Assembly: GCA_026417375.1 (NCBI GenBank)
Contig: JAOADJ010000031.1
Span: forward strand, 62,001-126,000
Direction: 5' to 3'
From: Melioribacteraceae bacterium
GTDB taxonomy: Bacteria; Bacteroidota; Ignavibacteria; Ignavibacteriales; Melioribacteraceae
DNA length: 64,000 nt
Shown: positions 3,943-62,145 of the stretch, in pieces
Position numbering within the stretch: position 1 is the first letter of the stretch
Layout: every line of letters begins with the position of its first letter
Translations under genes and position numbers: made by a program
The notes under the pieces: model-generated
What the model saw: only the letters and a program-made list of their open reading frames with translations
Databases searched by the model: none
What the model was told of the DNA's origin: nothing

Positions 3943-5142
3943 TTAACTATTAGATACAATTTGTTGAGTATCTAAAGCAATTACAAGTTCTTCATTTGTA
4001 GGAATTCTAAATACTTTCACTTTTGAATTTGGTTTTGTTATAAGGCATTCACCTTTTACATTATTATTTAATTCATCATCAAAATCAATTCCTAAAAATT
4101 CCATATCTGTACAAACATCTTTTCTAACAAGAGTTGAGTTCTCACCAATTCCACCAGTAAAAACAAGTGCATCAATTCCCCCCATAGCTGCAGCATAAGC
4201 ACCAACATATTTTTTCACTCTATATGTAAAAACATCAAATGCCATTTTAGCTTTTTTATTTCCTTCTAAAAGAGCTTGTTCAATTTCTCTCATATCACTG
4301 CTTTCACCACTAATTCCAATTAATCCGCTATGTTTATTCAATAAAGTATTTGCTTCTGAAAGTGATAAACCTTCTTTTGCCATAATATATAAAATAACAG
4401 AAGGATCCATATCTCCACTTCTGGTTCCCATCAATAAACCTTCAAGTGGAGTAAAACCCATTGTTGTATCAACTGATTTACCATTACAAACAGCAGCCAT
4501 TGAACAACCATTTCCTAAATGAGCTGTAACAATTTTTAATTCTTCTATAGGTTTACCTAATAATATTGCTGCTCTTTGTGAAACATAGCGATGTGAAGTT
4601 CCATGAAATCCATAACGACGAATTTTATATTTTTTATATAACTCGTATGGTATTCCATAAAGATAAGCTTTTGATGGCATTCCAACATGAAAAGAAGTAT
4701 CAAAAACTCCAACCTGAGGCGTATCTTTTAATAATTCTTTAGCTGCTAAGATACCTTTTATGTTTGGCGGATTATGAAGAGGAGCAAGTTCAATATTATC
4801 TTTTAATGCTTTCATTACTTCATCATTAATCAAAACAGAACCTGAAAAAGTTTCACCACCATGAACAACTCGATGTCCAACCGCATCAATTTCATTTTTA
4901 TCTTTTATTACGCCATGATTAGGAGATAACAAAACTGCTATTACATATTCAATTGCAATAGTATGATCAAGAATTTCACCAACAATTCTAATTTTTTCTC
5001 TGTCATGAGGTTGATGAGTTAAAACGGCGCTTGACATTCCAATTCTTTCAACCATTCCTTTTGCAAGAGCAAGAGATAAATTTGTATCTATAAATTGATA
5101 TTTAATCGATGAACTTCCGCAATTAAGAACTAATACTTTCAT
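3943..5142 (-). CDS. ackA: Acetate kinase
   Basis: Catalyses acetyl phosphate + ADP to acetate + ATP, the substrate-level phosphorylation step of acetate fermentation. The 399-residue length is normal. The N-terminal phosphate-binding motif is VLNCGSSSIKYQ. Later come GHRVVHGG, YGFHGTSHRYV with the catalytic His, VTAHLGNGCS, the TRSGDMDPS motif with an active-site Arg/Asp, and the FTGGIGENS nucleotide-binding signature. It lies 12 bp downstream of the 3-hydroxyacyl-CoA dehydrogenase gene and ends in a clear terminator. No phosphotransacetylase gene adjoins it, so acetyl phosphate must come from a gene elsewhere. Confidence 0.97.
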   Translation of the reverse strand: MKVLVLNCGSSSIKYQFIDTNLSLALAKGMVERIGMSSAVLTHQPHDREKIRIVGEILDHTIAIEYVIAVLLSPNHGVIKDKNEIDAVGHRVVHGGETFSGSVLINDEVMKALKDNIELAPLHNPPNIKGILAAKELLKDTPQVGVFDTSFHVGMPSKAYLYGIPYELYKKYKIRRYGFHGTSHRYVSQRAAILLGKPIEELKIVTAHLGNGCSMAAVCNGKSVDTTMGFTPLEGLLMGTRSGDMDPSVILYIMAKEGLSLSEANTLLNKHSGLIGISGESSDMREIEQALLEGNKKAKMAFDVFTYRVKKYVGAYAAAMGGIDALVFTGGIGENSTLVRKDVCTDMEFLGIDFDDELNNNVKGECLITKPNSKVKVFRIPTNEELVIALDTQQIVSNS

Positions 5143-23183: not shown

Positions 23184-24050
23184 TTAATAACTAGAATCTG
23201 AACCAGAACCAGAAACAATTTTAACACTTGCAGAAGCTCCAATTCTATCTGCGCCGCTTTCAATCATAGCTTTTGCATCTTCTGCGGTTCTTACTCCGCC
23301 GGAAGCTTTAACTCCCATTGATGATCCAACTACATATCTCATTAATGCAATATCTCCGGCAGTAGCACCACCTTTACTAAAACCAGTTGAAGTTTTTACA
23401 AAATCTGCTTTAGCATTTTTACTTAACATACATGCTTTTACTTTTTCTTCATCTGTTAATAAAGATGTTTCTAAAATTACTTTAGTAAGCACTCTATATT
23501 TTTTAGCAGCCAAAACAACCTGATTAATGTCGTTAAAAACATAATCATAATTACCTTGTTTTAACATTCCAATATTTATCACCATATCAATTTCCTGAGC
23601 ACCATTTTGAATTGCTTGTTCAGCTTCAAATCTTTTTACTTCTGTGGTCGTTGCACCTAAAGGAAATCCGATTACTGTACAAACTTTAACTTTAGTGCCT
23701 TTTAATAGATCTGCACATAAAGGAACATAACATGGATTAACACAAACACTTGCAAAATTATATTGCTTTGCTTCATTACATAATTTAATTATTTCATCAG
23801 CAGTTGCTTCCGGTTTTAGTAAAGTATGGTCAATCATCCTTGCAATATTCTGATCTATTTTATCGAATTCGACGCCTGAACTTGCTGCAATTCTTTCAGC
23901 ACCATTTTCTATTATTTTTTTAACTGCATTTGGTTGATCAACAACATTTCTTTCCCAACCGACACAAGTTTGTGCATTGCAATAAAAATTTTGTAATGCT
24001 TTTTCAATAAAAACTTCTGAAACTATTTGATCAATTAATGATGTGTTCAT
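23184..24050 (-). CDS. deoC: Deoxyribose-phosphate aldolase with N-terminal extension
   Basis: Cleaves 2-deoxyribose-5-phosphate to acetaldehyde and glyceraldehyde-3-phosphate. The aldolase barrel begins at about residue 69 ([15 protein letters not shown]). It carries Asp155 (IDMVINI), the Schiff-base Lys219 (FVKTSTGF), Lys248 (VKASGGVR) and the phosphate loop GADRIGASA. The protein ends in SSY, matching the catalytically important C-terminal Tyr of E. coli DeoC. The first 68 residues are extra. Residues 1-20 ([20 protein letters not shown]) look like an amphipathic microcompartment encapsulation peptide, then comes a linker with Cys24/Cys29 and [10 protein letters not shown]. It lies between folD (8 bp) and the HicB-like gene in a minus-strand operon. 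Confidence 0.93.
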
Positions 24051-34768: not shown

Positions 34769-35395
34769 TTATAATGTTCCAAAAGTTCTATCGCCTGCAT
34801 CACCCAATCCGGGTAATATATAACCAAATTCATTTAATTGTCTATCTAAACTTGCTGTGTAAATTGGTACATCCGGGTGAACAGAATTCATTTTTTCAAT
34901 TCCTTCTGGAGCAGCAATTAAACAAGCAAGAATACAATTATTTGCTCCCTTTTGTTTCAAGGAATTAAATGATGCAACTGCACTGCCACCAGTAGCAAGC
35001 ATGGGGTCTAAAACTATTGTTAATGATTCTTCTAATTTTTTGGGAGCTTTGTAATAATAATCTATTGGTTTCAATGTAATTTCATCTCTTTGTAAACCAA
35101 TGTGACCTACATTTGCATCTGGGATCATCTTCAAAAATGCATCAACCATACTTAAGCCAGCTCTTAATACTGGTACAAGTACAATCTGTTTTTTTATTTT
35201 ATAACCAACAGTTTTTTCCAGTGGTGTTTGTACTTCAATTTCGTCGAGTTCAAATGAATTTGCAATTTCAATTGCTATAGCATAAGAAACTCTATTTAAA
35301 GCTGCACGAAAAGTTGAAGTGTTGGTTTCTTTATCTCTTAAAATTGTAACATCTCTTTTTACTAACGGATTATTAATCACAAATAAATTACTCAT
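34769..35395 (-). CDS. upp: Uracil phosphoribosyltransferase
   Basis: Salvages uracil to UMP using PRPP. The 208-residue protein has the N-terminal VTILRDKETNTSTFRAAL, the VPVLRAGLSMVDAFLKMIP motif, the PRPP loop IVLDPMLATGGSAVAS, and the uracil-binding end GYILPGLGDAGDRTFGT. Its start overlaps the stop of the CoA-disulfide-reductase-like gene by 4 bp, and rel/spoT follows after 13 bp, so the genes from 36747 down to ruvX probably form one transcript. Confidence 0.95.
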   Translation of the reverse strand: MSNLFVINNPLVKRDVTILRDKETNTSTFRAALNRVSYAIAIEIANSFELDEIEVQTPLEKTVGYKIKKQIVLVPVLRAGLSMVDAFLKMIPDANVGHIGLQRDEITLKPIDYYYKAPKKLEESLTIVLDPMLATGGSAVASFNSLKQKGANNCILACLIAAPEGIEKMNSVHPDVPIYTASLDRQLNEFGYILPGLGDAGDRTFGTL

Positions 35396-60702: not shown

Positions 60703-62145
60703 TTAAAAAAAATATTTTATCGTTGTTAATAAATTTCCAACATTTATTTCTTGATGAACACGTGATAAATTACTTCCATAATTATCACCAAAATCTTTCC
60801 ACCAACCATAAGCATAAGCAATATCAAAATTTAGTTTTTTAGAAAGTTTATACCCTAAACCAAATGTTATAAACTTTTTATCAAAATCACTCGGATCATC
60901 TTTGAATGCAGATGGTTTATACATAAGTCCAGCTCTTACCGTAAAACCTAAATCTGGTATTAAATATTCGCCACCAATATTAATATTCAAAACAGTTCTT
61001 AGTAAATCATTTATTTCTTTGTTTTTGTCTAAACGAACATCTTTGTCAAATCCAAATGAAAATTCACCAGAAGCGTAATCAATTAATTTTGCATCTAATG
61101 CAACAAGAAAATTATTGTTTTTGTATGAAATCCCCCCGGTGTACTCATAAGGAGTTGTTATATCATATTCAATTTTTGATTCAGGTGGACTATCTTCCCA
61201 AAAAGAATTTCTAAAAGTACTTGACGCATAGATTGAATAAACTTCTTTAATTGAAAAAACTCTCGGAAATCTTACAGATAAACCAACATTAATATTTTCA
61301 TTTAATTTTGAAAGCAATCCAATTTTAAATTCGTAGCCAGATAAATCCCAATCTAATCTATCTCTGAAATAAAATTTTTGGAAATCAGCAGTTTTTGGTT
61401 CAGATGGATCTAATAATAAATTACCTGGATATAAATCCTTTGTATCTTCTTCCCAATAATCTCTAACCTTAAAAAATTCTCCATTTAGAATAGAAATTGT
61501 TCCACCTAAAAAAACATCTTTATCTATTTCAATTCCTACTGTAAAATACCAATTGGAAATTTTTCCTTTATTACTAATGTTTCCTTTTTGGTTCAATCTA
61601 CCATTTATTAAAGTTGTGTCTTTTATATACTTTTTATTCTTATCATATAATGGATAACTCAATGCAAGATTATATGCAATATCATCATTATAACTTGCTA
61701 AATCTTGTATCATAGAATTGTTGCTACTATTAAATCCATTAAAGTTAATTGCTTTATTAAAATCCTGACTAATATTATAACCAAATGCAAAAGTTAAACT
61801 ACCTCTACTAGTTGGTACAGGTAAAACAATTCCAATTTGATTCCATCTGGAAGATGAATTTTTAGCAACATCTGAACTATTAAATAAAATTGAATTATTG
61901 TTAAACGAATTAGAATTAAATCCAAAATCAATTTCACCTTTTCTTAACAATGCAATTCCAGCCGGGTTAAAAAAACCTGAAACTAAATCATTAGAAAAAG
62001 AATTAGCAGCATTACCCATTCCTAAAAATCGTGCATTTGTAATTATACTTTCTTCACTTAATCTTAAAACATCATTATAATTTTGAGCATGAATAAATGA
62101 ACCAATTAAAAATAAAATTAATACTAAAATATTTTTTGAGTTCAT
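60703..62145 (-). CDS. OmpP1/FadL-family outer-membrane protein
   Basis: A 480-residue outer-membrane barrel protein from ATG 62145 (MNSKNILVLILFLIGSFIHA, signal peptide), with AAGGAG upstream. The mature N-terminus has ITNARFLGMGNAANSFSNDL followed by SGFFNPAGIALL, the family's hatch-region signature also seen in PorV/PorQ relatives. Amphipathic beta strands continue to a terminal Phe (TTIKYFF). It probably transports hydrophobic compounds, or serves the secretion system as a PorV-like carrier; the sequence does not decide. The frame is open a further 101 codons upstream, but that is a shadow of the low-complexity gene next to it. Confidence 0.82.
   Translation of the reverse strand: MNSKNILVLILFLIGSFIHAQNYNDVLRLSEESIITNARFLGMGNAANSFSNDLVSGFFNPAGIALLRKGEIDFGFNSNSFNNNSILFNSSDVAKNSSSRWNQIGIVLPVPTSRGSLTFAFGYNISQDFNKAINFNGFNSSNNSMIQDLASYNDDIAYNLALSYPLYDKNKKYIKDTTLINGRLNQKGNISNKGKISNWYFTVGIEIDKDVFLGGTISILNGEFFKVRDYWEEDTKDLYPGNLLLDPSEPKTADFQKFYFRDRLDWDLSGYEFKIGLLSKLNENINVGLSVRFPRVFSIKEVYSIYASSTFRNSFWEDSPPESKIEYDITTPYEYTGGISYKNNNFLVALDAKLIDYASGEFSFGFDKDVRLDKNKEINDLLRTVLNINIGGEYLIPDLGFTVRAGLMYKPSAFKDDPSDFDKKFITFGLGYKLSKKLNFDIAYAYGWWKDFGDNYGSNLSRVHQEINVGNLLTTIKYFF

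Follow-up and report, generated by a model that had tools for sequence, protein, structure and literature searches.

The stretch analysed here, called the window below, comprises 64,000 nucleotides (positions 62,001 to 126,000, forward strand) of contig JAOADJ010000031.1 in the Melioribacteraceae bacterium assembly GCA_026417375.1. A deoC open reading frame reported in a first-pass annotation, which named no strand, is intact and lies on the minus strand (Table 1). Its product matches the curated model TIGR00126 with 296.2 bits (cut-off 117.3) over residues 69-279, and is a deoxyribose-phosphate aldolase (DeoC/DERA) by the criterion of that model. The N-terminal extension is real: 68 residues precede the TIGR00126 match and 72 precede I73 of the IDHTLLKP motif. 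D155, K219 and K248, which we take to be the catalytic Asp and the two catalytic Lys of DeoC/DERA, are invariant in an alignment of 41 extended DeoC relatives, and the genome contains only one DeoC. Apart from the unusual length, nothing suggests that the extension is a miscalled start or a non-coding upstream stretch. M1 is nearly invariant and the extension is conserved from this first Met in the 41 aligned relatives, leaving such an explanation with a probability close to nil.

Table 1. Positions in the window of the genes and protein segments discussed in the text.
Feature	Position	Strand	Basis
deoC, deoxyribose-phosphate aldolase with N-terminal extension, 288 aa	23184..24050	minus	ORF from ATG, TIGR00126
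DeoC residues 1-20, predicted terminal helix, candidate encapsulation peptide	23991..24050	minus	AlphaFold2, helical moment of relatives
DeoC residues 21-42, linker with C24 and C29	23925..23990	minus	alignment
DeoC residues 43-62, copy-like segment GA.RI.AG.G	23865..23924	minus	alignment, resemblance to own phosphate-loop unit
DeoC residues 69-279, DERA barrel	23214..23846	minus	TIGR00126 match
DeoC residues 259-278, normal C-terminal phosphate-loop unit	23217..23276	minus	resembled by extension segment 43-62
BMC-H shell protein, 93 aa	31792..32073	minus	PF00936 105.3 bits; EutM NCBIfam 139.3 (cut-off 133)
BMC-H shell protein with long C-terminal tail, 226 aa	31105..31785	minus	PF00936 91.9 bits
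Acetate kinase	3943..5142	minus	TIGR00016 529 bits (cut-off 293.4)

In the 41 aligned extended DeoCs, the extension is made up of three parts, a predicted terminal helix, a Cys linker and a segment that includes G50, A51, R53 and G59. These four residues and C29 are invariant in the set and C24 is nearly so, C24 and C29 being the two linker Cys pointed out in the single sequence. In many families outside the order to which the window belongs, the linker approximates C.DG.C.D..CVVHN. A DNA pattern that captures a single form of the Cys linker, and does not detect other forms of the extension including that in the window, was scanned over a genome-contig collection and identified 41 loci, all 41 of them in DeoC, with titles that refer to Ignavibacteria/Ignavibacteriae, Bacteroidetes/Bacteroidota, Bacteroidia, Chlorobi or uncultured bacterium. 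A profile search of the window's own genome for other proteins carrying the extension returned DeoC alone. The extension was not found in 39 distinct solved DERA chains, where profile matches all start at position 59 or later.

The third segment had been described as copy-like, and the resemblance is beyond chance. The best match in the barrel for residues 43-62 is the phosphate-loop unit at residues 259-278, with a mean BLOSUM62 score of 29.0 over 41 sequences (z 5.2) that none of 200 column shuffles equalled; for the shorter stretch, residues 49-60, one of 200 did. The second-best place in the barrel is residues 143-162, another helix-turn-strand unit.

The proposed amphipathic character of the first 20 residues is borne out in part only, with a raised best-window helical moment in the relatives as a set and no significance for the window DeoC itself. 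A fixed-window measure of helical moment, used first, gave a weak result, with 73% of shuffles as high as residues 3-18 of the window DeoC and only 22% of 63 relatives below 0.05. In the best-window measure, used second, the best 11-residue stretch at the N-terminus of the window DeoC has p 0.18, whereas the mean for 59 extended relatives is 0.67 against 0.46 for shuffled sequences, and p is <0.05 in 46% of these 59 compared with 9% of 34 unextended N-termini.

AlphaFold2 predictions from 41 sequences gave a confident barrel (0.8 Å to chain 6d33_D, Z 38.2, 215 residues) and a low-confidence extension with a helix at residues 3-23 and pLDDT <50 at residues 14-34 and 50-63. A 61-sequence prediction with the DeoC of sampled genome G109 as target placed the helix at residues 3-18, with a mean pLDDT of 80 over residues 1-10. 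In this model, residues 31-60 have pLDDT 63-72 and include a helix at 39-47 and a short strand at 53-55, the C-terminus of the enzyme falls below 50 from residue 273 onward, and the deviation from the 6msw/6d33 chains rises to 1.9 Å. There is a hint here, and no more, that in the prediction a single place is contested by the two phosphate-loop-like copies. The linker is conserved in parts, and these may adopt a fold. The first-pass annotation had named folding of the extension as part of the barrel dimer interface as evidence against its proposal; the models speak against such folding only in part, as the terminal helix is predicted without confident docking and packing against the barrel is possible for residues 39-55.

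Genes for two BMC-H shell proteins containing PF00936 lie 7.1-8.0 kb from deoC, in agreement with the distance of about 8 kb first given. In the 226-aa BMC-H, the BMC domain is followed by a tail of ∼145 residues, and by eye the end of this tail resembles a SAP/Rho-N type nucleic-acid-binding unit, for which there is no Pfam match. Long open frames at such a BMC-H gene recur in relatives. Another nucleoside-salvage gene, for uracil phosphoribosyltransferase (34769-35395), is found 2.7 kb past the BMC-H pair.

The genome (2.83 Mb, 99% complete, 58 contigs) holds all three classes of shell protein, with two BMC-H, one BMC-T that has two BMC domains, and three BMC-P (PF03319). This goes beyond the initial observation, as the full set is present but scattered. 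The shell genes are on four contigs (C36, C10, C29 and C1), with two of the BMC-P genes on C29 and one on C1, in a draft assembly in which C1 is only 7.2 kb. Together, the shell and enzyme genes occupy six stretches on five contigs, with DeoC and BMC-H amid housekeeping genes. An RnfC-family (PduS-like) gene (L010:9101-10975) is located directly ahead of the BMC-T gene on C10. A search for PduL (PF06130) found no match in this genome. The acetate kinase gene in the window (Table 1) is a possible, circumstantial candidate for the last step from acetaldehyde to acetate. Among 245 genomes of the class, BMC-P was found in 92, mostly in three copies, and PF00936 in 97.

Two further enzymes, beyond the view of the first-pass annotation, carry added ends of their own. 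The first is an aldehyde dehydrogenase (AldDH) encoded on contig C8, which matches the model for acetaldehyde dehydrogenase (acetylating), TIGR02518, with 634.8 bits against a cut-off of 620.1. The match stops at residue 452 of 527, and the protein ends in GISEEEIQKIIKDFSK, a tail with a helical moment of 0.66 that only 0.1% of shuffles reach. Thirty AldDH and 30 BMC-P loci, the best-scoring and mostly from the window's own order, were examined; one AldDH locus (L223) could not be parsed, and all 29 of the tails read end in a short helix-like motif behind a variable linker. AldDH relatives (E ≤1e-60) were detected in 89 of the 245 genomes, namely in 85 of an 87-genome BMC-P set and in 4 others whose matches end ahead of the tail. 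The 87-genome set was chosen afterwards and consists of the 92 BMC-P genomes minus G065, G096, G174, G208 and G119, with G085 retained. Some matches among the 85 are fragments; in G013, G082, G085, G136 and G200 the match ends before that protein's own tail though the frame continues, and in G204 it ends within the tail.

The second is RpiB, which is present in single copy on contig C10 (L265:1324-1947) with 59 residues ahead of the family match. Within this leader, residues 2-46 are similar to the final part of the model TIGR02536 for an ethanolamine-utilisation protein (E 5.7e-5). Asp takes the place of the usual catalytic Cys. RpiB loci were selected from lists by score and a long frame, and in the resulting 68 rows (66 genes, G126 and G011 being repeated) the Asp form occurs in 21 and the Cys form in 47. 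All 21 Asp-form rows have a long leader and come from a BMC-P genome.

The gene for phosphopentomutase, deoB, adjoins BMC-P in 28 of the 30 best-scoring BMC-P loci, and the fragment in the window's own genome scores 270.6 (cut-off 256). At L009:1088-2895, deoB and the BMC-P pair are separated by a PIN-domain gene. A sigma-70 gene follows the pair there and a sigma gene, identified by eye, likewise follows it in G033. The G033 genes, all on one strand, are deoB, BMC-P, BMC-P, sigma factor, NlpC, def, fmt and extended deoC, with the middle genes named by eye.

In the window's own family, DeoC and BMC-H are on one contig, 7.8-17.8 kb apart, in 21 of 27 shell-bearing genomes. In other families, deoB, BMC-P, BMC-H, AldDH or RpiB was found near DeoC in none of 41 named loci, each up to 8 kb long, a search in which positive controls were recovered, and this goes against linkage of DeoC to its partners as a general rule. 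An SPU-type operon was seen in G085, where RpiB, extended DeoC, BMC-P, AldDH, BMC-H, EutJ, a weak BMC match, a small protein and two BMC-P genes follow one another on one strand. The DeoC extension in G085 is 85 residues long and built like that in the window, RpiB has a helix-like N-terminal leader, and the AldDH, which scores 559.5 bits with TIGR02518 and is thus under the cut-off of 620.1, has a tail that reads as helix-like. The link first drawn between DeoC and sugar-phosphate-type (sugar phosphate utilisation, SPU) compartments is borne out by this SPU-like operon, and because the extension of its DeoC is of the same build, the window DeoC has the kind of extension found on SPU-type DeoC.

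The association between extension and shell was determined in the 245 class genomes, 221 of which have a DeoC match. An extension was called when the match begins at residue 45 or before. In the best 150 of the 221 matches, extension and BMC-P occur together in 85, extension alone in 4, BMC-P alone in 4 and neither in 57 (Fisher p 1.9e-31, uncorrected for ancestry). Of the remaining 71 genomes, in which DeoC matches more weakly, 2 (G096 and G208) have BMC-P and 69 do not. Wide occurrence of the extension in shell-free DeoC, which the first-pass annotation had regarded as evidence against its proposal, is thus not seen among the best 150 (4 compared with 57). When sequences were read (97 plus that of the window; 3 of 100 fetched loci, G073, G112 and G008, could not be parsed by motif), 64 DeoCs from genomes with BMC-P were extended and 3 were not, and from genomes without BMC-P none was extended and 31 were not. 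A strict two-Cys definition missed G195, G140, G157 and G125, which have one Cys each, and a looser definition was used instead.

The exceptions were few. Extension without BMC-P was recorded, among the best 150 of the 221 matches, in G139, G181, G192 and G212. Shells are found in the sampled genus-mates of G139, itself a 78% complete genome. The other three belong to genus g55, in which G033 has both a shell and a full extension. G192 (98% complete) and G212 (97%) have no shell match, lack the Cys linker and keep segment 3 as remnants only, and G181 (96%), also without a shell match, has at most a remnant of the extension interrupted by a stop. The pattern in g55 would be explained by loss rather than gain of the extension. 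BMC-P without extension was found, in the same 150, in G031, where DeoC is severed by a contig edge, and in G065, G119 and G174. G065 and G174, like G096 and G208, carry PduL and therefore represent another shell type, and G119 is unusual in its ten BMC domains, accompanied by one BMC-P. In G114 (74% complete), a shell is present and there is no DeoC match.

Two further observations were made in this sample. In the shell-free genome G170 (L079), from another family, the DeoC has kept a helix-like N-terminus without Cys linker or segment 3, which is perhaps a half-decayed tag. G230, G241, G153, G215 and G013 (L113-L117) have an extended DeoC together with PduL and extra BMC genes, and may therefore have a second, operon-type compartment.

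In a tree built from the barrel only, the shell label requires 10 changes, and there are 5 independent contrasts for BMC-P on well-supported branches and 10 on all branches. Over the 5 well-supported contrasts, the extension agrees with the shell in ∼2.9 and shows no difference in ∼2.1, with 0 in which it runs counter to the shell. If G065, G174 and G119 are scored as shell-less, 3 of 3 well-supported contrasts go with the shell, and there are 8 contrasts on all branches. Under either scoring, a sign test on the independent contrasts cannot reach 0.05. This small number of contrasts leaves some room for an alternative in which the extension would act as a module for regulation or oligomerisation, composed of metal- or redox-sensing Cys and a pseudo phosphate loop, with the shell correlation arising from ancestry. 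The invariance of C29, G50, A51, R53 and G59, the copying of the enzyme's own C-terminal unit by residues 43-62, and the possible packing of residues 39-55 on the modelled barrel would all suit such a module. Against it stand the decay of the extension in the three shell-free sampled members of g55 when the fourth has both shell and extension, the lack of an extension in the shell-bearing G065 and G174, of the PduL type, and G119, and the presence of the extension on the DeoC in the SPU-type operon of G085. As the whole explanation, the module is considered unlikely, but segments 2 and 3 may hold a regulatory or oligomerisation role besides targeting.

Several known systems resemble the one described here. 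The sections of Sutter 2021 (PMC8217296) dealing with FRAG compartments describe scattered shell genes, a BMC-P triplet and hosts that include Ignavibacteriae, call FRAG enigmatic, and list FRAG1-7 without an obvious signature enzyme. The window's genome shares the BMC-P triplet and the placing of shell genes at several genomic sites, and its compartment is FRAG by layout, an assignment that refers to the scattered-gene description and not to the FRAG1-7 shell HMM types. The difference is that extended DeoC is proposed here as the signature enzyme for Ignavibacteria FRAG compartments. Among the open-licence papers searched, none was found that assigns DeoC to FRAG compartments, though the assignment may have been made elsewhere, and in these papers the term 'FRAG BMC' was used in PMC8217296 only.

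SPU loci, according to the parts of PMC8217296 and Axen 2014 (PMC4207490) that list their content, contain pfam01791, pfam02502 and AldDH, and the latter reports a PduL phosphotransacylase in all of the first SPU loci but that of Marinimicrobia. The window's genome has BMC shell genes, one pfam01791 (DeoC-type) aldolase, one pfam02502 (RpiB-type) isomerase and an acylating aldehyde dehydrogenase, and differs in having neither PduL nor the one-locus organisation, which was found in G085. Because this organisation was looked for and is absent from the window's own genome, the compartment is not filed as an SPU locus, although it would work like an SPU metabolosome.

In the Haliangium (HO) type, as characterised in part of PMC8217296, pfam01791 enzymes are unlinked and in some genomes have an encapsulation-peptide-like N-terminal extension. 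By this description, a pfam01791 enzyme encoded elsewhere in the genome and an N-terminal extension are shared with the system described here, but HO genes are centred on a main locus and the hosts are different. Archaeal Family 4B encapsulin operons also place a DeoC gene next to that for a compartment-type protein, with nucleoside use suggested in the relevant section of PMC8346489; the protein concerned is an HK97-type A-domain protein and there is no BMC shell.

Encapsulation peptides are described, in the portion of PMC11157265 devoted to them, as 15-20 residues tethered to cargo by a flexible linker, and that portion includes evidence that they bind between shell tiles. From the features described above, all read from sequence, we infer shell binding, encapsulation, substrate and flux as follows. 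The shell genes would be scattered through housekeeping operons in the FRAG layout. Phosphopentomutase, the product of the gene beside the BMC-P pair, would convert deoxyribose 1-phosphate derived from DNA or deoxynucleosides to deoxyribose 5-phosphate, and DeoC would be the aldehyde-generating cargo enzyme of the microcompartment. Acetaldehyde would be converted to acetyl-CoA inside the shell by the acetylating acetaldehyde dehydrogenase, with its C-terminal tail resembling an encapsulation peptide, and the RpiB-like isomerase with an added leader is probably in the same lumen. It is thus probable, and this is the reading we favour, that the genes specify a dispersed deoxyribose-phosphate metabolosome with the extended DeoC as its cargo and signature enzyme. 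The original suggestion of a signature enzyme in a housekeeping setting is largely supported by the tracking with shells, the SPU link and the presence of all, though scattered, shell classes.

It could be argued that DeoC is a minor passenger and that another enzyme supplies the main aldehyde of the compartment, as the substrate of AldDH is assigned by a family model only and the five sampled genomes with extended DeoC, PduL and extra BMC genes may provide for more than one compartment. This is very unlikely, given that the AldDH encoded in this genome passes the acetaldehyde model, that deoB adjoins BMC-P, and that DeoC, RpiB and AldDH, which together make up the SPU set, share one operon in G085. 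A more elaborate form of the signature-enzyme reading, to which little probability is given, is that the phosphate-loop copy in the extension and the native C-terminal unit are in competition and the Cys linker serves as a redox or metal switch, an arrangement that would keep the aldolase inactive before its entry into the shell and prevent release of acetaldehyde in the cytosol; the scattered FRAG genes would then specify a constitutive, dispersed deoxyribose-phosphate organelle.

The location of the parts amid housekeeping genes suggests that the compartment would always be made rather than induced. The co-occurrence of added ends could, as this case suggests, reveal the cargo of scattered compartments where gene order fails. 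Through the extended DeoC, the tailed acetaldehyde dehydrogenase and the deoB neighbourhood, the FRAG compartments of Ignavibacteria would gain a concrete role in the use of DNA sugar.
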